Shown here piece after piece: positions 1 through 10,754 of a DNA stretch of 64,000 nt. Below the pieces are notes generated by a model. That model had not been told where the DNA came from. It ran no database searches and saw only the letters and a program-made list of their open reading frames with translations. The DNA lies in assembly GCF_018362975.1 (NCBI RefSeq), contig NZ_CP074371.1, positions 3,658,001 to 3,722,000 of the forward strand. Reading direction: 5' to 3'. Positions within the stretch are counted from its first letter, which is position 1, and every line of letters begins with the position of its first letter. The DNA comes from Nocardia tengchongensis (GTDB lineage Bacteria > Actinomycetota > Actinomycetes > Mycobacteriales > Mycobacteriaceae). A program made the position numbers and the translations under genes.

Positions 1-87
1 AGGTCGTTGCTATTCGTGGCCGCGACCCGGGCTCGGGACAGCATCGTGATCAGCTGGCATGGAAAGAAGAGCAGGTTCTTGCCGTGA
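1..87 (+). CDS. UvrD/RecB-like helicase, C-terminal fragment (partial at window edge)
   Basis: The frame is open from base 1 and stops at 85-87. It encodes 28 residues containing FVAATRARDSIVIS, which matches helicase motif VI of the UvrD/Rep superfamily (V-A-x-T-R-A-R-D followed by a beta strand), then a short basic tail. Only the extreme C-terminus is in the window, so domain content and substrate cannot be judged. The stop overlaps the start of the following kinase in a GTGA arrangement, so the two are probably translationally coupled and belong to one operon. Confidence 0.6.
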   Translation, partial: RSLLFVAATRARDSIVISWHGKKSRFLP

Positions 88-953
88 AGACTCTGGCCGA
101 CCGGTACCAGGTCACTTCCGCCATCGGGCGCGGTGGCATGGGGGAGGTGTGGGGTGGAAAGGACCTGCGCCTCAACCGGCCCGTCGCAATCAAACTGGTA
201 GCGGCGGAATTCGCGAGCGACACCGAAACACGCCGGAGGTTCAACCGGGAGGCCAGAATCACCGCGCGGCTGCACCACCCGGGCGTGCCAGCGGTGTACG
301 ACTTCGGTAGTGACGGTGAGCTCTTCCTCGTCATGGAGCTGGTCCCCGGGGATTCCGTCAGCATGCTCGTCGGCGAGCTCGGCGAGCTGCCGGTGAACTG
401 GGCTGCGTGCATCGCGGCCCAGGTGTGCGCGGTGCTGGCCGCCGCGCACGAGGCGGACCTGATCCATCGCGACGTCAAACCAGGGAACCTCGTCCTCAGT
501 CGCAATGGACTCGTCAAACTCATCGATTTTGGTGCCGCCACCTCGCTGCGGGCCGACGAGTACTCCGTTATCACGATGTGGGGCGATATTCCCGCATCAC
601 TCGGCTACATGGCGCCCGAATTACTGGAAGGAGGACCAGCCGGCCGTGCGAGCGACCTGTTCTCAGTCGGCTGCCTGCTCTACGAACTCCTCACTGGTTC
701 ACGCCCTTTCAAGGCCAGTTCGAATCGGGCATCTCGGCCGCCACGGATGAGTGACGTGCCGAGGCAGCTGGAAGATGTCACGTTTGGGCTGCTGGATCTG
801 GATCCTGCGCACCGGCTGGCCGACGCTAGCTCAGCGCACGGACTCCTGATGCCATGGGTCAAGGGGCGTGCTTCAATTCCGGGATGGGTCGACCGCGACA
901 TTTGCGATGACCCTGTTCAGATGTATGTGGATGCCGCGTCGCAGCGAATGTGA
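84..953 (+). CDS. Hanks-type serine/threonine protein kinase, soluble
   Basis: The 289-residue protein is almost only a kinase domain. Visible landmarks are the glycine-rich loop IGRGGMGEV (residues 14-22), the ATP-anchoring lysine in VAIK (K37), the catalytic loop HRDVKPGN (H128-N135), the DFG aspartate in IDFGAAT (D148), and an APE motif followed by the structural D of subdomain IX. No transmembrane helix or PASTA repeat follows, so unlike PknA/PknB it should be cytosolic. The GTG start overlaps the stop of an upstream UvrD-like helicase, suggesting a helicase-kinase operon. The substrate is unknown. Small kinases next to helicases occur in several phage-defence systems, but the assignment to defence here is inference from context. 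Confidence 0.88.
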   Translation: MKTLADRYQVTSAIGRGGMGEVWGGKDLRLNRPVAIKLVAAEFASDTETRRRFNREARITARLHHPGVPAVYDFGSDGELFLVMELVPGDSVSMLVGELGELPVNWAACIAAQVCAVLAAAHEADLIHRDVKPGNLVLSRNGLVKLIDFGAATSLRADEYSVITMWGDIPASLGYMAPELLEGGPAGRASDLFSVGCLLYELLTGSRPFKASSNRASRPPRMSDVPRQLEDVTFGLLDLDPAHRLADASSAHGLLMPWVKGRASIPGWVDRDICDDPVQMYVDAASQRM

Positions 954-1134: not shown

Positions 1135-2688
1135 ATGCTGTCCGTGACGGAAGACACCAACCAGGGACATGAGCCGCGTGCATGGCTGATCCGCGGCGGT
1201 AGCCACGGGGAACGCGAAACCCAGGCGCTGACCGAGGGCCTCGCCATCGTGGGGTGGGAGGAAATGGGCGATCTGAAAGCCTATTCGACGTGGCCCGAGC
1301 TGATCTCGGCCCTCCAACTGGCCTACCCCGAGGTAGGTCGTGCGGTGATCGGGAACTGGGCTGGGCAGCTGTGGAAATTCGACACCGATATCCAGGCCGG
1401 TGACCACATTGTCATGCCGTTGAAGACCTCCCCTGGGCGAGTCGCGATCGGGCGAGTCAGTGGTCCGTACGAGTACCGTGTCGAGAAGCCCGCGGAGCTG
1501 CGTCATGTACGGAAGGTCGACTGGATCCGTCGCGATATCGCGTGGGAATCGATCCGGCCCGACCTGCGTGCGAGCCTCGGCTCGCTGCTGACGGTGTGCG
1601 GGTTGGTGCGGCACGATGCCGCTCGCCGCATCGCGCATCTGGCCGAGGATGGTGTCGATCCTGGGTACGCGGGAGAGGCGGAGGTCACCAGTGCAAGTGA
1701 ACTGCTGGACGACGCCGCCAGCCGAGAAGCCGGCGCCCTGCGCACCCTCACTATCCGCAACCTCCTCGAGCATTGGGGTGCCGAACGGCGAACTGCCGCA
1801 GCTGTCTCCACGATCAAATCCGATCTTGCGGGCAAGGGGCTGACGACTCGGCCTCCGTTCACCGAGGGCGACCTCAGTGCCGTCGTCGCGCTCGTTCCGC
1901 TCGGCACTGAACCTGACGCCGAGTCGACGCTTGGTTACGGCACGACCGAAGTTGAAGATGTGAGCGAGCCCGAACCCATGTCGCGGCGACTCGGTAGCCT
2001 GCCTGCCCGGCTGGTGGGGATATCGTCGGAGGTAGGTCTGACCTACGCCAAAACGCTGATGGTGCAGCGAGGATTCTCGCAACTCGCGGTGATCGACGCC
2101 GACGGCACCTACCATGGCGCGGTCACCTGGGAATCGATCGGCCGGGCGCACATGGCCTTCGAGAACCCATCCCTGTCGAACGCGGTCGTTCGCGCACCGG
2201 TGGTCGATCACGACGCCCTTTTGCTCGACCAGGTCTCGGTTATTTACGACAATGGCTTTGTCTTCGTTCGAGACGCCGACCGGGTGCACGTCACCGGCAT
2301 TCTCACTGCTTCCGATCTCACCGCACAGTTTGGCACGCTCGCCAGGCCGTTCGTCCTTATCGAGGAGGCGGAGAACCGATTGCGCTGTGCAGTGGACATT
2401 TTCGGCATCGAGGAGCTCCGCCCAGCGCTTCCGGGTAACATGCGCCGTCGTGTCAACGGTCCCGTGGACCTTACCTTCGGCAGCTACAAGCATATCTTCG
2501 CCGACCCCGATCGATGGGCGAAGCTCGGTTGGAACCTCGACCAGGGCCAATTCTTGGACCTGCTGGAAACTGTCCGAAAGATCCGGAACGAACTGATGCA
2601 CTTCGCGCCCGATCCGCTCTCTGATGAGAAGTTCGCCGCCGTGAACGGATTGCTCCAACTTCTGCGTACTGCCGCGCCGAACCTCTGA
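1135..2688 (+). CDS. Multidomain protein: PUA/EVE-like N-terminus, CBS-pair, HEPN-like C-terminus with RxxxxH motif
   Basis: The 517-residue protein appears to have three modules. Residues ~15-160 resemble the PUA/EVE-like N-terminal domain seen in Mrr-like restriction proteins: a W-L-I-R-G-G beta strand, G-W-E-E-M-G-D-L, W-A-G-Q-L-W-K-F, G-D-H-I-V-M-P, and I-G-R-V-S-G-P-Y-E-Y. Residues ~283-402 read as two CBS half-repeats, each with a short strand-turn-strand and a G-x-V-T / G-I-L-T element. The last ~110 residues are helical and end with RNELMH (R484-H489), matching the R-x4-H catalytic motif of HEPN ribonucleases. A model is nucleotide sensing by CBS controlling a HEPN RNase, with the PUA/EVE part recognising modified nucleic acid. 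This is inference. A helicase-kinase pair lies upstream and an IS remnant downstream. Confidence 0.75.
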   Translation: MLSVTEDTNQGHEPRAWLIRGGSHGERETQALTEGLAIVGWEEMGDLKAYSTWPELISALQLAYPEVGRAVIGNWAGQLWKFDTDIQAGDHIVMPLKTSPGRVAIGRVSGPYEYRVEKPAELRHVRKVDWIRRDIAWESIRPDLRASLGSLLTVCGLVRHDAARRIAHLAEDGVDPGYAGEAEVTSASELLDDAASREAGALRTLTIRNLLEHWGAERRTAAAVSTIKSDLAGKGLTTRPPFTEGDLSAVVALVPLGTEPDAESTLGYGTTEVEDVSEPEPMSRRLGSLPARLVGISSEVGLTYAKTLMVQRGFSQLAVIDADGTYHGAVTWESIGRAHMAFENPSLSNAVVRAPVVDHDALLLDQVSVIYDNGFVFVRDADRVHVTGILTASDLTAQFGTLARPFVLIEEAENRLRCAVDIFGIEELRPALPGNMRRRVNGPVDLTFGSYKHIFADPDRWAKLGWNLDQGQFLDLLETVRKIRNELMHFAPDPLSDEKFAAVNGLLQLLRTAAPNL

Positions 2689-2717
2689 GCAGCATGCAAA
2701 GGTGGTGCGCCGCGCCG

Positions 2718-3416
2718 CTAGCACTCCAGCCGCACTTTGTTACGTAGTTGCTTTCGCCGCTTGTAGTGGGCCTGTTTGGCCCGGTACTTGTGTCGACGTC
2801 CTCTGTCGACCAGCGGCGGATTCGGTTGAGGGGTGCGGAGGTGGTGATCAGCTGTGCCAGCAGACGTCGGATTTCTCCGATAGCGAGTGGGATAAGGCCG
2901 CTGTTAAAGCTTTTTGGGGGAGATTGCTGCGGCGACAGTGAGGTAGGTGTTGGCGAGCATGGCCAGAGTGGTGTGCCGGTACTAGGCGTCGTAGCGGCGG
3001 ACCTGGGAATGGTCGAGCCCGACATTGGATTTCGCGGTCTGGAAACAGTCCTCGACCGTCCATCCTCCACAGCGACCCGGATCAGTTCCTCGCCGCTGGT
3101 GCCGATCGGCGCGCCGCACAAGTAGTAGGCGATCTCTCTTCGCCCTTGGTGATGCGGTCAATTCGCGCCTGACCAGCAGCCACCGCCGCCAGTCAGGATC
3201 GGCTTCACCGGCCGATTCCCGGGTCGTCACGGCCCAGTCGAAAGCCGGGCTCCGCAACTGCGGCGCGTCCACCCTTGCGGTGGCGCGTCGGTCAGCACGG
3301 GAGCCGCCGCTCGGAGGTGCGATCGGCGCACTGTTGGGCACTGCCACCACATACCCGACCTGCCAGTGCTCGAGCCACCGGCGGAACTTCGAATCAGCGC
3401 CGTAGGCTTCACCTAG
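2718..3416 (-). pseudogene. Degenerate IS701-type transposase, 5'-truncated and multiply frameshifted
   Basis: Reading the minus strand in shifting frames gives an almost continuous DDE transposase C-terminal half: GADSKFRRWLEHWQVGYVVAVP (3416 onward), AYYLCGAPIGTSGEELIRVA (~3125), GWTVEDCFQTAKSNVGLDH and QVRRYDA (~3060-2990), then an in-frame TAG where a tryptophan is expected (~2981), YRHTTLAMLANTYLTV, and a basic tail RRHKYRAKQAHYKRRK ending with a stop at 2718-2720. At least four frame changes plus the amber codon show it is dead. The N-terminal third and the left end are missing, and the homology begins at the stop codon of the winged-helix gene at 3413, which suggests the insertion or a deletion removed what followed that gene. 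No terminal inverted repeats or target duplication were found. Confidence 0.82.
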
Positions 3417-4937: not shown

Positions 4938-5140
4938 TTGCTCGATCCGATGTGGTCTGGTTCAAGAGCAGTAGATCAGCGCAGCAGGATGCTTGCGTAG
5001 AAGCCGCACACCTCGGGGGAGGCGGTGTGGGCGTACGGGACTCGAAGTTGGGCGAATCGAGCCCGGTGTTGGTTTTCGATGGGCCGACCTGGGATCGTTT
5101 CACCCGCGCCGTGATAGCGGGCAGGTTCGATCGGCCCTAG
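4934..5140 (+). CDS. DUF397 protein (Scr2-like partner of the XRE regulator)
   Basis: The 68-residue protein shows the DUF397 signature: W-F-K-S-S-R-S near the N-terminus, a C-V-E-A strand, V-R-D-S-K in the middle, and W-x-x-F-x-x-A-V near the end. DUF397 proteins are small partners of Scr1-type regulators in Streptomyces and Nocardia. Its ATG overlaps the TGA of the regulator (ATGA), so translation is coupled. The stop overlaps the 3' end of the convergent gene at 5137 by 4 bases. Confidence 0.88.
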   Translation: MIARSDVVWFKSSRSAQQDACVEAAHLGGGGVGVRDSKLGESSPVLVFDGPTWDRFTRAVIAGRFDRP

Positions 5141-7080
5141 CCGCCGGCTCGTAGGGCTGAGTCGACGAAGGTTGGGTCGAAGTTGCTGTCTCGGCCCCAA
5201 ACCTGGTGTGCCAAACTAAGTTTGACGATTAGATTCTTGACCAAGGCGGCTTCTTGGTCCGGGGATCGGCTGCCTTCAATCAGAACTTTGGAGTAACGGA
5301 CTGCGTCGACGATGACGGACTTGATCCGTTCGTGGTTCAGGTAGGTCTGGAGATCCGACTCCCAGCCATGGGTCGATGCCGCGGGCTCAGCGGTCGCCCA
5401 CTGCTCCAGGAAGCACGCCTGCTCGTCCGAGTGGTAGCCCATCTTGTGCAGGTGGGAAGCCACGTCGTAGAGCGGGTCGCCGTACAGGGCCAGTTCCCAG
5501 TCGAGGAAGACGACTTCCCGACCGTCGCGGATGATCATGTTCTTGCGGTGGACGTCGGCGTGAAGCAGTCGGAATGGTCGGGGTTCGAGTGTGCGCCAGC
5601 CTGTCTCGATGGTGGCGAAGGGGTCGGGTGGGATTTCGAGGTCTTGGTAGAGCCTGCCGTAGCGGTCGCGGTTGTCGCGGAATACTCGGCGGGTCACGTC
5701 CGAGAGTCGGCTCGCGAAGGCGAAGGGATCGTCGGACAGGTCCGACTGGTGTGACTGCGGCAGCAGTGCGCGCGGGATCAGGCGGAGATCGCCGAAGAGC
5801 CGGGCGACTTCTCGGGGGACGAAGGGCGGTACGGCTTGGCCGCGCGGTGCGATGTGGTCGAGTAGCTCGCCCTCGATGTGGTCTTGGATCTGGTAGGTCG
5901 GATCCGTGGACTCCCAGCGGACTCGGGGCGCCGCGGTGACGAAAGGTTCTATGGCGCGCAGGATTTCGACCTCGGGCCACACGTGCAGGTCCATCATGTC
6001 CGCGCCGGCGACCGGGATTCGGACGTTGACCGGGCCGGAAGGAGAATCAATTCGTACATTGTGGTTGTAATATCCGGCCGCGGCATCGGTTCGGGTGATG
6101 GCTTCGCGGTAGTAGGTGGCGGGATCCATGCCGAGGACCTTCGCGAAGATGACCTGGGCCGCGTGGTCGAGGTCCTGGTCGGGCGTCGGGGGTTGGATTC
6201 GGGTGACTGCTCGCGCCGCGGCCAGAGACACTGCGGGATCGGACCATCCGAACAAGGCGAGCACGGTTCGGGCGAGCAGGACAAGTGCCGGGTAGACATT
6301 GGCCGCTTCGAGTTCGGAGACGGCCCAGCGAGCCCCGGTGACGGCCGCTGCTCGGTCGCCGCGGCGTGCGTGCAGGCCGGCGCGGAACAGTTCGGCTCGG
6401 GCCCGGCCGGAGCGGTATCCCGCGCGGTCGAGTGTTTCGCAGGCGTCGGCGAATGCGCGGTCGGCGGCTTCGAGATCGGCGAGCGCCAGGTAGGCGATCC
6501 CGAGGGCGGTGTGTACCTTTCCGAGTTCGTGGAGGGCGCCGAGGTCGCGTTGGATTGCTATGGCGTCGGCCGCGGCGGCGATGCCGGCGGCGGGGTCCGT
6601 CAGGGCCAGCAGTTCGGCGCGGTTGGTTGCGATGTTCGACTGTCCGACAATGCTTTCCGCTGCCTCGTAGTGGGTATCGGCGTCGGCCAGATAGCGCGCG
6701 GCTGAATCGGTGTCGAAGGACATTCGGTAGATGAGGTGCCGCAATCGGGCTATGTCGCCGAGGAATTCGCGGTCGTCGACATCGGCGAGTTCATCGAGCT
6801 GGTCGCAGAGCTCGAGGGCCTGAGCGAATCGGCCTTGGCACATGTGGAGGTCGGCGGCCCACAATCCGGCATCCAGCCGCACCTGACCAGACCCTGCCGA
6901 CCACAGCGTTGTGTAGATGTCCAGGGCGTCGTCGGTGTGGCCGAGGATGCGGCGGGCATTGGCCGCGGCCAGCGTCAAACGCTCGGCGACCGGTCCGGTG
7001 GACTCGGTGGCGATCGCGGCGGTCAGTTCGTCGGCTCGATTCGCATCCCGAGGAGGATCGCGCCCTCGGCGGCCAAACAT
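5137..7080 (-). CDS. TPR protein with C-terminal aminoglycoside-phosphotransferase-like (APH) kinase domain
   Basis: The 647-residue protein has an N-terminal half rich in tetratricopeptide-like helix pairs ([12 protein letters not shown] type repeats, ~25-330) and a C-terminal APH/choline-kinase fold. The Brenner-type catalytic motif HADVHRKN is at H507-N514 and the metal-binding aspartate in FLDWE at D527, with the usual D-P-L-Y-D-V-A-S-H after it. The start overlaps the end of the STAND ATPase by 58 bases in another frame, which is either coupling or the scar of a frameshift in one larger STAND-TPR-kinase protein. The N-terminal ~16 residues look un-proteinlike, so the real junction may be internal. 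The kinase substrate is unknown, and there is no reason to assume drug resistance. Confidence 0.75.
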
Positions 7081-8577
7081 TGTGTCAGTTCACGAAATTC
7101 AGTGGTGTCGGGTCTGTTGCCGTCAGCGAGATACTCGTTCAGATCGACGAGGACGGCGTCGATCCCTTGTTTACCGCCCGCGGCCGCGATGCGGTCCACG
7201 TAGTCGAGCAGCGCGACAGCCGTCAACGTTCCGGCGCGCACCCCGTGGTAGCAGGCTTCGCGCAGTGCGGCGACCCGGTCCGATCCGGATTCTGCTCGGT
7301 CCCGCCAGAGGCTGTGCAGCACATCATGAAGCGTAACGGCCACGTCGGCATCGAGGCGCCGGCGCAACGCGGTCACCATGAGCTGATGCAGCTGAAAGCG
7401 GCTCGCAACGCTGTCCTGCTCGGCGGAGTGGACGAACGAGTAGCTGATCAGGGACTTCCAGGCCGGAACGTGTGCGGGGAGCCGGAAAACGGACGCGACG
7501 GCGGTGAAGATCTCGTAGTCGAATACGCGCGGGAGCCCCAGCAACTCGAGGGTCCGGATCTCGTCGGGCCCGACATGCTGGAGGAATCGCTCCAGGATCG
7601 CTTCAGGAGAGACGAGATCAGGCGAAATGCCGACGTATGCCCGGGCATCGATCGCCAGATGGAGGTAGAAGGGGACACCTTCGCTCGCGGTGGCGATCGC
7701 GTCGCGCTCATGTGGGTCATGGACGCCGGATGCGTCCAGCAGACGGTCGCGGTCAGCCATCGTCAGGTCATTGATCGCCACCGTTTCGATGCGGTCGTTC
7801 CATTCGCGATCATGCCGCTCCCAGCCGAGCGGCTCGCGACTGGCGATCACCACCAGTCCCTTGTCCAACTGCGCCACGACGTCTCGAAGCCAGGCGTCCG
7901 AGACAGTCGTGCGGCCGATCCGGTCGATTCTGCCGACCAGCGCCTCGTACGCGTCGAAGAACGCGACGTACGGTGGCTGCTCGGTGGTGCCCTCGGCGAG
8001 GTCGGCGGCGAACAGGTACGAAACCGCCGCTTCCAACTGACTCAGTGTGAGTTTGTCGAGCTCCTGAAGAACCTGATCATGGCGAATGCGGTACGACCGC
8101 TTGGCCTTTCGCGTACCGAGCTCCACCAGGCGTGCCGCGGTGCCGAAGACCGGTATCCCGGTTGCGTCATTGAGGATCTCGGTGAGAACCTCGCTGTTCT
8201 CAGCGAAAGCCATCGACTCGAAGCTCACCCGCAGGTGTGGGTGCAGCCGCTGCCACAACACCGTGTAGGCGATGTCGAAGCGGTGGAACTTGATCTTGCG
8301 GGAACCGAACTGGGATCGCAACACCGCCAACGCCTCGACCGACTGCCGGTGGCTGGGCACCTGGAAATCGAGTGTGGCGGTTGGATGTTCATCAGCCCGC
8401 GAGCGCAACTCAGCGAGGAGACGCGACTTGCCGATCCCGCCGACTCCCGTGAGCAGCAGAACTTTGGGCGTGTTCGAGGCGTTGGCCAGCAACTGGTCGA
8501 AGTGAGCAATCGCGGTGTGCGCGATTCACGAACGGCCGGTCGACTGCGCCCGGTCGATAGCGTGCGATTAGTGCCAT
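7023..8577 (-). CDS. STAND-type P-loop ATPase (apparent frameshift near 8521)
   Basis: From 8492 down, an open frame encodes an AAA/STAND NTPase: Walker A GVGGIGKS (residues 16-23 of that frame), a Walker B-like V-A-F-F-D-A-Y-E strand, the sensor-like L-V-V-I-A-S-R-E, and a helical C-terminal arm. Upstream, a second frame starting at ATG 8577 encodes A-V-D-R-P-F-V-N-R, the conserved lead-in of such proteins (F-V-N/D-R-E). The two halves join naturally if one base is restored after 8521, giving ...FVNR(E)[11 protein letters not shown].... STAND ATPases act as ligand-triggered switches in regulation and in antiphage immunity. The next gene supplies TPRs and a kinase-like domain, so sensor and effector may be split between the two genes. 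The ligand is unknown. Confidence 0.72.
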
Positions 8578-8780
8578 TGAGCCAGCCCCCTCAGCCTTTG
8601 CGCGTTGCAATTGTCGCCGATGGGCGCCTCGAGAGAGTGGGCCTTCGGTATTTCACACGCGCCAATTTGTGGCTAACAAACCAACCAATCGGAACTTGCG
8701 GCTAGCAGAGGAATTGCGTCAACCTGGGGGAGCGCCGTTCGTTCGGGCGGATGTCGTCGCAAGGGGATGGGGGTATCGCG

Positions 8781-10754
8781 ATGGCACGTGCAACGGGTCA
8801 TGACAGAGAAGTACGACGGGTGCAGGCGGAGAAGGCGCTAGCCGCAGTCGGTCCATTGTCGACGCGGGCGCGCAACGTGTTGTCCGGGATGCTGGCGGAG
8901 GGTCGGCGAGGGTGGCACCTACTCGTTCGAGATTCACAACCGCTGGCGTCGCGAGGCGCTGATGCGTTTCTGATCGGGACCGGCGGGGTCTTCGGGCTCG
9001 TCTTCGATGATGTGGTGCCGGAGACGCCAACCGCCCGCGGCATCGAGGCGCACGCCGAGCAGCTTTTTGCTGACTTGCCGGTGGGAAACCATCGCAATGT
9101 GTTCGTTCCCGAGACGATCGAACTCGTATTGGTCGTTGCGCCACACGGCCGGCTGCGGGCTGCCGATGGCCTCCGCCGCGTGACCGAGCTCGACTACCGG
9201 TCGCTCTTCGGCAGTGAGGCACGACTAGATCGTGGCGTCGCCGGCAGGATTGCGGAACTCGTCGCCGCGCGGCGCCACGGTTACACGCTGTTGTCACTGG
9301 ATCGACCGCAGGCTCAGGTTGACTCGGGCGAAGTGGGATTGATCGGCACCGAACATCTGGTCGAGGGGGACCGGGTGCGGGCACTCGCGAAGCCGTTCCC
9401 GACCTGGATGACGTTCCTCGACCCCGACCAGCGGGCACTGGTAGCGAAGAACTACAACGGCCCGGCCAGGATCGCAGGACCTGCGGGCAGCGGCAAGACG
9501 GTGGTCGCGCTGCATCGGATGGCCCGTCGGGCGCGGAGAACTACCGGAAAGCTGTTGTTCACCACGTTCGTTCGCAACTTGCCGCGTTGCCAGGAACAGG
9601 GTTTCGCGCAGTTGGCGCCTGGCGCGATGCACCGGACAGAGTTCAAGAACCTACATTCGTGGGCGCGTGAGTTTCTCGACCAACGTGGAGAGCCGTCGGA
9701 GATGAAACTCGTCCAGGCTGACAACGCCTTCAATCTCGCCTGGTCGCGGGTAGGGAGCCGCGGATTGCTCGCGGAAATCGAACCTGACAACCGCTACTGG
9801 CGGGAGGAGATCGATCGCCTGATCAAAGGACGCGGTATCCATGACTTCGATGAATACGCCGGGTTGGATCGTCGTGGGCGGAACGGCCGACTGGTTCGAT
9901 CGGCTCGAAACGCTGTGTGGGATCTGCTCACTGAGTACGAGCAGATTCGCCGCCGCCGGCCCTTCCTCGACTCCAATGATCTCATCGCAGACGCGTTGAT
10001 CGAGCTGGAAAAGAACCCGCTCGAAGAGCTCTATGACATGGTCGTCGTAGATGAGGTCCAAGACATGTCGGTCCTCGGGCTGCGGCTCGTCCATGCCCTC
10101 ACCGGGGATGCGCCAAACGCGCTGCTACTGGTGGGCGACGGACAGCAGAAGATATACGCGGGTGGATGGAGGCTGTCGGATGCGGGAATCCCGATCGTTG
10201 GGCGCGGCGAGGTGCTTCGAGTCAACTACCGAAACTGCGAAGCCGTACTCGCGCTGGCTGCTTCGCTCGAGGGAAAGACCAGAGTTGACAATCTCGACGG
10301 TGACGCTGGTACTGCCCTGAGTCGTTCCGGCGGTGCCCTGCCTGGTGGGACAGCTGAAAGATGGAGCGGCAGCGACTCCGATGTCGAGGAACAGGTACGC
10401 ATCCAGTTGGACAGGATTACGGTACAGGGGATTCCTTTATCTGCGACGGCCCTGCTCACGTTGACAAACTACGATGCTGACCGATTTCGGGCAGCCCTGC
10501 GTCGGTGGCAAGTACCCTTCCGGAACCTCGAGGACTACACCGGTGCCGACGAGGACATGATCAAGATCGGCACCGTGTACCGCGCCAAGGGGCTCGACTT
10601 CCGTGCAGTCTTGCATCCATTCTTCGAGAAGGCTCTTCCCGCGGAACCGCTCACTGACGCGGAGCGTGACCGTGCCGAGTTGGTAATCAATCAGCGATTC
10701 GTCGCCGTCACCAGGGCACGCGAGTACGTCTGGTTGGGGACTGTCGAGAGATGA
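8781..10754 (+). CDS. UvrD/Rep superfamily 1 helicase with NERD-like N-terminal domain
   Basis: The ~657-residue protein has a Walker A motif GPAGSGKT about 240 residues in, motif II VVVDEVQD (~430), LLVGDGQQKIY (motif III), VNYRN (IV), GTVYRAKGLDF (V) and FVAVTRAREYVWLG (VI), a complete SF1 helicase set. The ~220-residue N-terminal region contains A-D-A-F-L-I-G-T-G-G-V-F-G-L-V-F-D-D, resembling the NERD domain core strand, but the expected catalytic lysine of V-K is replaced by D-D, so nuclease activity is doubtful. An ATG at 8751 would add ten residues; 8781 is preferred because of a G-rich ribosome binding site. The gene diverges from the STAND gene across ~200 bp. A role in DNA repair or phage defence is inferred. 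Confidence 0.8.
   Translation: MARATGHDREVRRVQAEKALAAVGPLSTRARNVLSGMLAEGRRGWHLLVRDSQPLASRGADAFLIGTGGVFGLVFDDVVPETPTARGIEAHAEQLFADLPVGNHRNVFVPETIELVLVVAPHGRLRAADGLRRVTELDYRSLFGSEARLDRGVAGRIAELVAARRHGYTLLSLDRPQAQVDSGEVGLIGTEHLVEGDRVRALAKPFPTWMTFLDPDQRALVAKNYNGPARIAGPAGSGKTVVALHRMARRARRTTGKLLFTTFVRNLPRCQEQGFAQLAPGAMHRTEFKNLHSWAREFLDQRGEPSEMKLVQADNAFNLAWSRVGSRGLLAEIEPDNRYWREEIDRLIKGRGIHDFDEYAGLDRRGRNGRLVRSARNAVWDLLTEYEQIRRRRPFLDSNDLIADALIELEKNPLEELYDMVVVDEVQDMSVLGLRLVHALTGDAPNALLLVGDGQQKIYAGGWRLSDAGIPIVGRGEVLRVNYRNCEAVLALAASLEGKTRVDNLDGDAGTALSRSGGALPGGTAERWSGSDSDVEEQVRIQLDRITVQGIPLSATALLTLTNYDADRFRAALRRWQVPFRNLEDYTGADEDMIKIGTVYRAKGLDFRAVLHPFFEKALPAEPLTDAERDRAELVINQRFVAVTRAREYVWLGTVER

Follow-up and report, generated by a model that had tools for sequence, protein, structure and literature searches.

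A 64,000 nucleotide stretch of the Nocardia tengchongensis genome (contig NZ_CP074371.1, positions 3,658,001 to 3,722,000 of the forward strand), termed here the window, carries an open reading frame whose product raises a question: what would a protein do in which a domain of the type that reads modified bases is joined to a CBS pair and a HEPN-type region? The frame, at window positions 1135..2688 (+), is a single one and encodes 517 amino acids with the domain order EVE/YTH, winged-helix-like segment, CBS pair and HEPN. The source genome is 8.0 Mb and forms a single contig. The public annotation gives a protein of 514 amino acids, three residues shorter, which is compatible with a start at codon 4. 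The last three parts are predicted to form a core common to this protein and DS-11, a phage-defence protein of E. coli. The CBS-HEPN core is not new, since DS-11 has already been described; the fusion of a reader to it was met nowhere in the literature searched.

Domain layout and relation to DS-11

The features of the open reading frame are as follows (residue numbers are those of the 517 amino acid protein):

1180..1659, + strand: EVE/YTH-type (PUA-like) domain of the modified-base-reader type, residues ~16–175; N-terminal part of PADLOC PDC-S02 and precomputed Pfam PF28530
1741..1899, + strand: winged-helix-like segment, residues ~203–255, first part of the DS-11 core; strand-helix-helix-strand-strand in the structure model
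1906..1980, + strand: disordered linker, residues 258–282; predicted local distance difference test score (pLDDT) <50 in the model
1981..2346, + strand: CBS pair (Bateman module), residues ~283–404
2074..2076, + strand: F314, counterpart of DS-11 Y157 (adenine stacking) in a BLASTP alignment
2296..2316, + strand: GILTASD of CBS2 (G388, T391, D394), by residue conservation
2347..2685, + strand: helical HEPN-type domain, residues ~405–517; helices in the model, weak HEPN matches, and NF053863 covering 208–509
2584..2601, + strand: RNELMH (R484 to H489), predicted HEPN catalytic motif, by conservation of R, N and H

The reader, winged-helix-like, CBS and HEPN parts together account for the whole length of the protein. 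A total of 230 homologues was found at E ≤ 1e-3 (7998 candidates scored); homologue counts for single residues refer to the 120 matches listed of these 230. Alignment A1, consisting of the query and 58 listed homologues, was the basis of an AlphaFold2 model (mean pLDDT 85.8; predicted template modelling score 0.49), which displays an alpha/beta N-terminal domain, the 203–255 segment, the linker, the CBS pair and a helical C-terminus.

DS-11, published in April 2026 (PMC13092281; statements on DS-11 here follow the available part of this source), is a DefensePredictor find that consists of one protein, and its description names no domains other than CBS and HEPN. The NCBIfam model NF053863 (DS11_antiphage) matches residues 208–509 over model positions 1–304 of 305 with an E-value of 5e-72. 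The score, 242.6 bits, is below the curated cut-off of 260, and the protein is therefore filed as a related, reader-fused variant and not as DS-11. The cut-off is exceeded in 4 of 148 genomes of the genus; two of the four (L004 and L005) are themselves reader fusions, so that the cut-off runs through the reader-fused clade.

A 365 amino acid E. coli protein (L087), present in 127 of 5426 E. coli genomes, was used for direct comparison. It is annotated as "CBS domain-containing anti-phage protein" in 2 and as "CBS domain-containing protein" in 13 of the 15 matches listed. It is presumably DS-11, since position 157 holds a tyrosine, which lines up with F314. L087 begins at the winged-helix-like segment and has no N-terminal reader. 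BLASTP aligns it with residues 205–512 at 30% identity, and its RNDVMH corresponds to RNELMH. Thus the two proteins share a winged-helix-like segment, CBS pair and HEPN in a single gene product, an aromatic residue at the adenine-stacking position and an RN-x-x-M-H motif; they differ in the reader and are only about 30% identical.

The winged-helix-like segment was absent from the layout given in the initial annotation. It aligns in 21 cores (alignment A6), and no Pfam family matched at residues 203–255. The CBS pair, which that annotation did propose, is well supported: Pfam PF00571 was found in all 59 aligned members at E ≤ 1, and there are matches to solved CBS pairs as well. In the 517 amino acid protein (P0001) PF00571 scores 22.7 bits, the cut-off being 24. 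Residue 314 is aromatic throughout, with F in 89 homologues and Y in the other 31. In CBS2, G388 and D394 are present in 120/120 and T391 in 117/120. We take GILTASD to be a motif of the ribose-binding type.

The R-x4-H motif had been singled out previously, and its conservation bears this out. R484 and H489 are each found in 117 of the 120 homologues, the remaining three having gaps. R, N and H of RNELMH are invariant in 39/39 aligned HEPN regions, including those of E. coli, Rhizobium and Haloarcula (a 40th row was left out owing to wrong coordinates). Matches to Pfam HEPN families are weak (Swt1, RiboL-PSP, STY4199 and MAE_28990, the best at 0.0083), and so the assignment of a HEPN fold relies on the motif, the helices and the homology to DS-11. 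The full L105 protein gives a HEPN-family match of 0.00027, also under the cut-off. No HEPN match was obtained in a sequence search of the PDB, and a structure search with the whole model gave no HEPN chain among the matches listed, which CBS pairs filled. From the motif, R484 and H489 are probably the catalytic residues of a HEPN domain with ribonuclease (RNase) activity.

A HEPN-CBS fusion was noted already in 2013 (PMC3710099, available part). On a Haloarcula plasmid, a 255 amino acid protein (L091:2974-3741, +) with CBS and RNALLH represents a minimal archaeal CBS-HEPN relative.

Two readers on one core

The N-terminal domain, in agreement with the reader type first proposed for it, is a PUA-like barrel of the EVE/YTH type according to structure prediction and structure search; a sequence search of the PDB gave no EVE/YTH match. 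The structure-search matches are mainly readers of N6-methyladenosine (m6A) in RNA, and the modification-dependent enzyme VcaM4I was also matched. With PADLOC PDC-S02 the domain aligns at E 5e-50. The same domain family is also joined to Mrr_cat and to McrB-like proteins, and occurs on a "restriction endonuclease" inside a type I restriction operon. Six aromatic residues (W17, W41, W75, W80, Y112 and W130) are conserved. From the modelled fold, the domain may recognize a modified base.

Four metagenomic proteins (P0124, P0125, P0126 and P0127) display ~300–400 residues of unfamiliar N-terminal sequence followed by EVE/YTH and the DS-11 winged-helix segment. All four end before the CBS pair, which may indicate a different architecture or a split system.

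A second reader-type domain was found on the same core. Five cores without EVE/YTH (L002, L003, L109, L110 and L111) have a RAMA domain (PF18755) before the winged helix, with scores of 77–82 bits against a cut-off of 35.2. Five further proteins combine RAMA and CBS (among the 120 matches listed of 173). RAMA has been described as a modified-base reader module (available part of PMC12839542); for the RAMA domain of MPND, a preference for N6-methyladenine could not be confirmed (available part of PMC11037411). The RAMA-bearing proteins (L002, L003, L109–L111, P0155 and others) thus share the core and the site of the reader with the 517 amino acid protein, but the reader is unrelated and they form a separate clade.

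The clades are seen in a maximum-likelihood tree of 113 of 202 cores (those left after span and redundancy filters). All 10 RAMA rows form one clade (100/100, the bootstrap being not fully settled). The 78 EVE/YTH rows form another, broken only by P0170 and P0178, which start at residues 190 and 180 and are N-terminally truncated. With three reader labels the tree shows 4 changes, compared with a mean of 32 when the labels are shuffled. Two different readers are therefore carried by two lineages of the core. The simplest reading of the tree is that EVE/YTH and RAMA were acquired separately by the same core. It is possible instead that an ancestral reader was lost or replaced; because the root of the tree is unknown, loss plus gain is indistinguishable from two gains. 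The presence of two unrelated readers at one site of the core is the strongest evidence of this comparison, and suggests that sensing of marked nucleic acid belongs to the function in these lineages. A reader is not obligatory, since some members, the E. coli protein among them, have none: neither EVE/YTH nor RAMA is present in 22 of 28 core frames examined, a proportion that is not a rate, as the loci were mostly picked for matches omitting the N-terminal domain.

Two RAMA loci have unusual features. In the open frame L111:2989-5325 (–), whose start is provisional, a stretch that looks RNase H-like by eye lies ahead of RAMA, winged helix, CBS and HEPN; Pfam at E ≤ 0.05 gave RAMA and CBS only. 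L131 (G049:C126:106141-106960) is a remnant of a RAMA-DS-11 gene in which RAMA, winged-helix and HEPN pieces are kept and the CBS part is gone.

The initial annotation held that this domain order did not correspond to a described defence system. This is correct as far as the reader is concerned, since no fusion of EVE/YTH or RAMA to CBS-HEPN was found in the open-access literature (supplements being outside the search); it is not correct for the CBS-HEPN core, which is the known one of DS-11. RAMA fusions of other kinds are on record, and three described groups come close. Mrr-type proteins with PF28530 (PADLOC PDC-S02) have the same N-terminal domain, but carry a PD-(D/E)xK Mrr catalytic domain (PF04471; e.g. 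P0132) as effector in place of winged helix, CBS and HEPN. EVE-HNH enzymes such as VcaM4I have an HNH deoxyribonuclease and no CBS pair, where the present protein has CBS-HEPN; VcaM4I reads 5-methylcytosine and 5-hydroxymethylcytosine (PMC7897488, available part). The CoCoNuTs, Type IV McrBC systems with YTH-like domains and HEPN RNases, share the idea of combining modified-base readers with HEPN RNases (PMC11090510). They differ in being multi-gene, based on the McrB GTPase and furnished with coiled coils, and the term CBS is absent from that paper. No McrB-like protein was detected among the 6 window proteins and 7 upstream frames scanned, and the locus is not classed with the CoCoNuTs. Nor does the 517 amino acid protein carry a DNA-cleaving Pfam domain of the kind found in Type IV enzymes (Mrr, McrC, HNH, GIY-YIG or PLD).

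Proposed mode of action and its alternatives

We consider it probable, with some reserve, that the protein is a single-protein anti-phage effector in which a DS-11-type core is combined with an EVE/YTH reader of a modified base on the nucleic acid of the invader, most likely DNA. Points in favour are the NF053863 match, the homology to DS-11 and the mutational data on that protein, the conservation of R484 and H489, the modelled fold of the reader, the presence of its domain family on restriction proteins, RAMA at the corresponding site of another lineage, the clades of the tree, the patchy occurrence and the island-like surroundings. The EVE/YTH domain would bind the modified base on the invading nucleic acid, possibly with further contacts from the winged-helix-like segment. 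The change would be licensed by an adenine nucleotide bound to the CBS pair; the dimer would then rearrange so that its two HEPN domains come together in one composite RNase site (R484/H489) that cleaves RNA. Phage production would then be stopped by dormancy or abortive infection.

Nucleotide control of a HEPN nuclease, suggested in the initial annotation, has a parallel in DS-11, which needs both the nucleotide site of its CBS domain and its HEPN residues (PMC13092281). Y157 is predicted to contact ATP and Y157A abolishes defence, as does mutation of the HEPN catalytic residues; its discoverers suggest that HEPN is regulated by an adenine derivative yet to be found, probably one bound by CBS. 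Gating by DNA modification, the other part of the suggestion, may be a property of the reader-fused forms. DNA is favoured as the ligand because the N-terminal domain and RAMA both occur on DNA-restriction proteins.

A broader proposal, which we hold with somewhat more doubt than belief, is that the DS-11 core may be a general, nucleotide-licensed RNase chassis onto which different readers are grafted. This would be a counterpart of Type IV restriction with a mark on invader DNA and an adenine nucleotide as its two keys, the cut falling on RNA of the cell and not on the marked DNA. If true, restriction-type recognition is wired to RNA cleavage in one polypeptide, and this in two lineages with different readers. 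The reader-fused forms offer a direct lead to the trigger of DS-11-type proteins, i.e. a defined base modification, and through it a way into the coupling between the CBS pair and the HEPN nuclease.

The reader might instead bind modified RNA, such as ribosomal, transfer or transfer-messenger RNA or phage messenger RNA with m6A-type marks, and HEPN would cut that RNA, as proposed for the CoCoNuTs, with no role for DNA modification. Eukaryotic YTH reads m6A in RNA, and the CoCoNuTs, many of them equipped with HEPN RNases, include YTH-like domains (PMC11090510, available part). The preponderance of RNA-m6A readers in the structure search points the same way. Against this, the family of the N-terminal domain is found on Mrr_cat and McrB-like restriction proteins. 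The targets of such proteins are DNA. The alternative reader, RAMA, is likewise a restriction/methylase-associated domain, and an archaeal YTH domain on McrB has been reported to bind DNA with m6A (PMC7641849, available part). An RNA ligand is thus unlikely, although it is the best placed of the alternatives.

It is less likely again that the N-terminal domain is an anchor for unmodified nucleic acid or protein and that an infection-induced adenine nucleotide activates the enzyme through CBS alone, as in reader-free DS-11. That DS-11 defends with CBS plus HEPN only (PMC13092281) is in accordance with an anchor, as are the start of L087 at the winged-helix-like segment and the reader-free state of the 22 of 28 frames, given their biased choice. 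An anchor does not readily explain why one site carries two reader-type domains unrelated to each other, or why aromatic residues of the N-terminal domain are conserved.

Proteins with CBS plus winged helix are often regulators, and no HEPN model scores above its cut-off; both would suit a protein that regulates transcription or RNA turnover in response to a nucleotide, has no defence role and ends in a helical C-terminus that is not a nuclease. Such a regulator is very improbable in view of the patchy distribution, the invariant R-N-H and the homology to the validated DS-11, whose HEPN mutants lose defence (PMC13092281).

Occurrence and genomic surroundings

Both the N-terminal domain and the core are present in 10 of the 148 genomes of the genus, the source genome included; in L008, one of the ten, a frame break interrupts the N-terminal domain. 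Eight genomes of the genus have a whole core minus EVE/YTH, two of these with RAMA, and two further ones have incomplete cores (L020 and L021). In the class, where up to three candidates per genome were scored, the fusion was found in 6 of 394 genomes, the core without the N-terminal domain in 16 others and the N-terminal domain without the core in 14 others. A strong DS11 match was present in 3 of 296 members of a phylum sample. Two short patterns gave 53 loci in GTDB contigs, and matches spanning both parts carry actinomycete genus names. The 517 amino acid protein had no match among 50,697 phage records; among 72,556 plasmid records there was one relative with >80% coverage.

The gene is downstream of a Ser/Thr kinase gene at window positions 84-953. 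Upstream sequence beyond the edge of the window (L092:6400-18087, searched as pieces; L092 is an 18.5 kb upstream stretch that ends 500 bases inside the window) encodes a Type IIG-like methylase and two helicases, one of the DEAD type and DruE-like, the other UvrD-like. The helicase coding sequence is broken up into overlapping segments that lie in different frames, a sign of decay or of assembly errors. The helicase-kinase operon of the initial annotation is present to the extent that these genes exist. Among 42 homologous loci, seven have kinase relatives within ~10 kb (L037, L044, L050, L052, L053, L054 and L061; six of them within 1.5 kb), on either strand and either side with no fixed arrangement; at other places of the own genome such kinases are 2 of 119 proteins. 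Apart from the protein itself, the commonest neighbour family is found in 9 of 44 sources (the 42 loci, the window and its upstream piece), and seven of the nine are Streptomyces loci sharing further neighbours. The kinase and helicase neighbours are thus unsupported as parts of a system, no family exceeding 9 of 44 sources and the placement of the kinase being variable. This is indirect evidence that the protein may have no obligatory partner.

The commonest neighbour family is represented upstream by a large protein (L092:1626-4403, +) that follows a kinase relative (598-1608, +). In L052, L054 and L061, too, the family adjoins a relative of the kinase.

The gene looks as if it sits in a defence island. 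At E ≤ 1e-15 the 142 near proteins matched 152 PADLOC models and the 142 far proteins 131; the control, 119 proteins taken from eight other sites in the source genome and thus from one genome only, matched 37. These are counts of models and not of proteins; the kinase of the window alone matches 35 at E ≤ 1. From the near set 4 of 146 proteins were dropped, seven near-duplicate loci were skipped, and no core gene was picked in L042, L058, L059 and L076. The expected enrichment of defence genes is accordingly seen over the own-genome background, where it is suggestive only, but there is no clear contrast between near and far around the homologous loci. No tRNA that might mark an island boundary was found in the window or the 18.5 kb upstream.

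Frames at window positions 2471-3350 (–) look by eye like transposase fragments, presumably of the IS701 type; no Pfam match was obtained for them. Two regions of the window contain possible defence genes. At 5137-8492 (–) overlapping genes encode a protein with TPR and an APH-like kinase and a STAND-type ATPase, and at 8751-10754 (+) there is a UvrD-like helicase close to PADLOC "NERD+UvrD".
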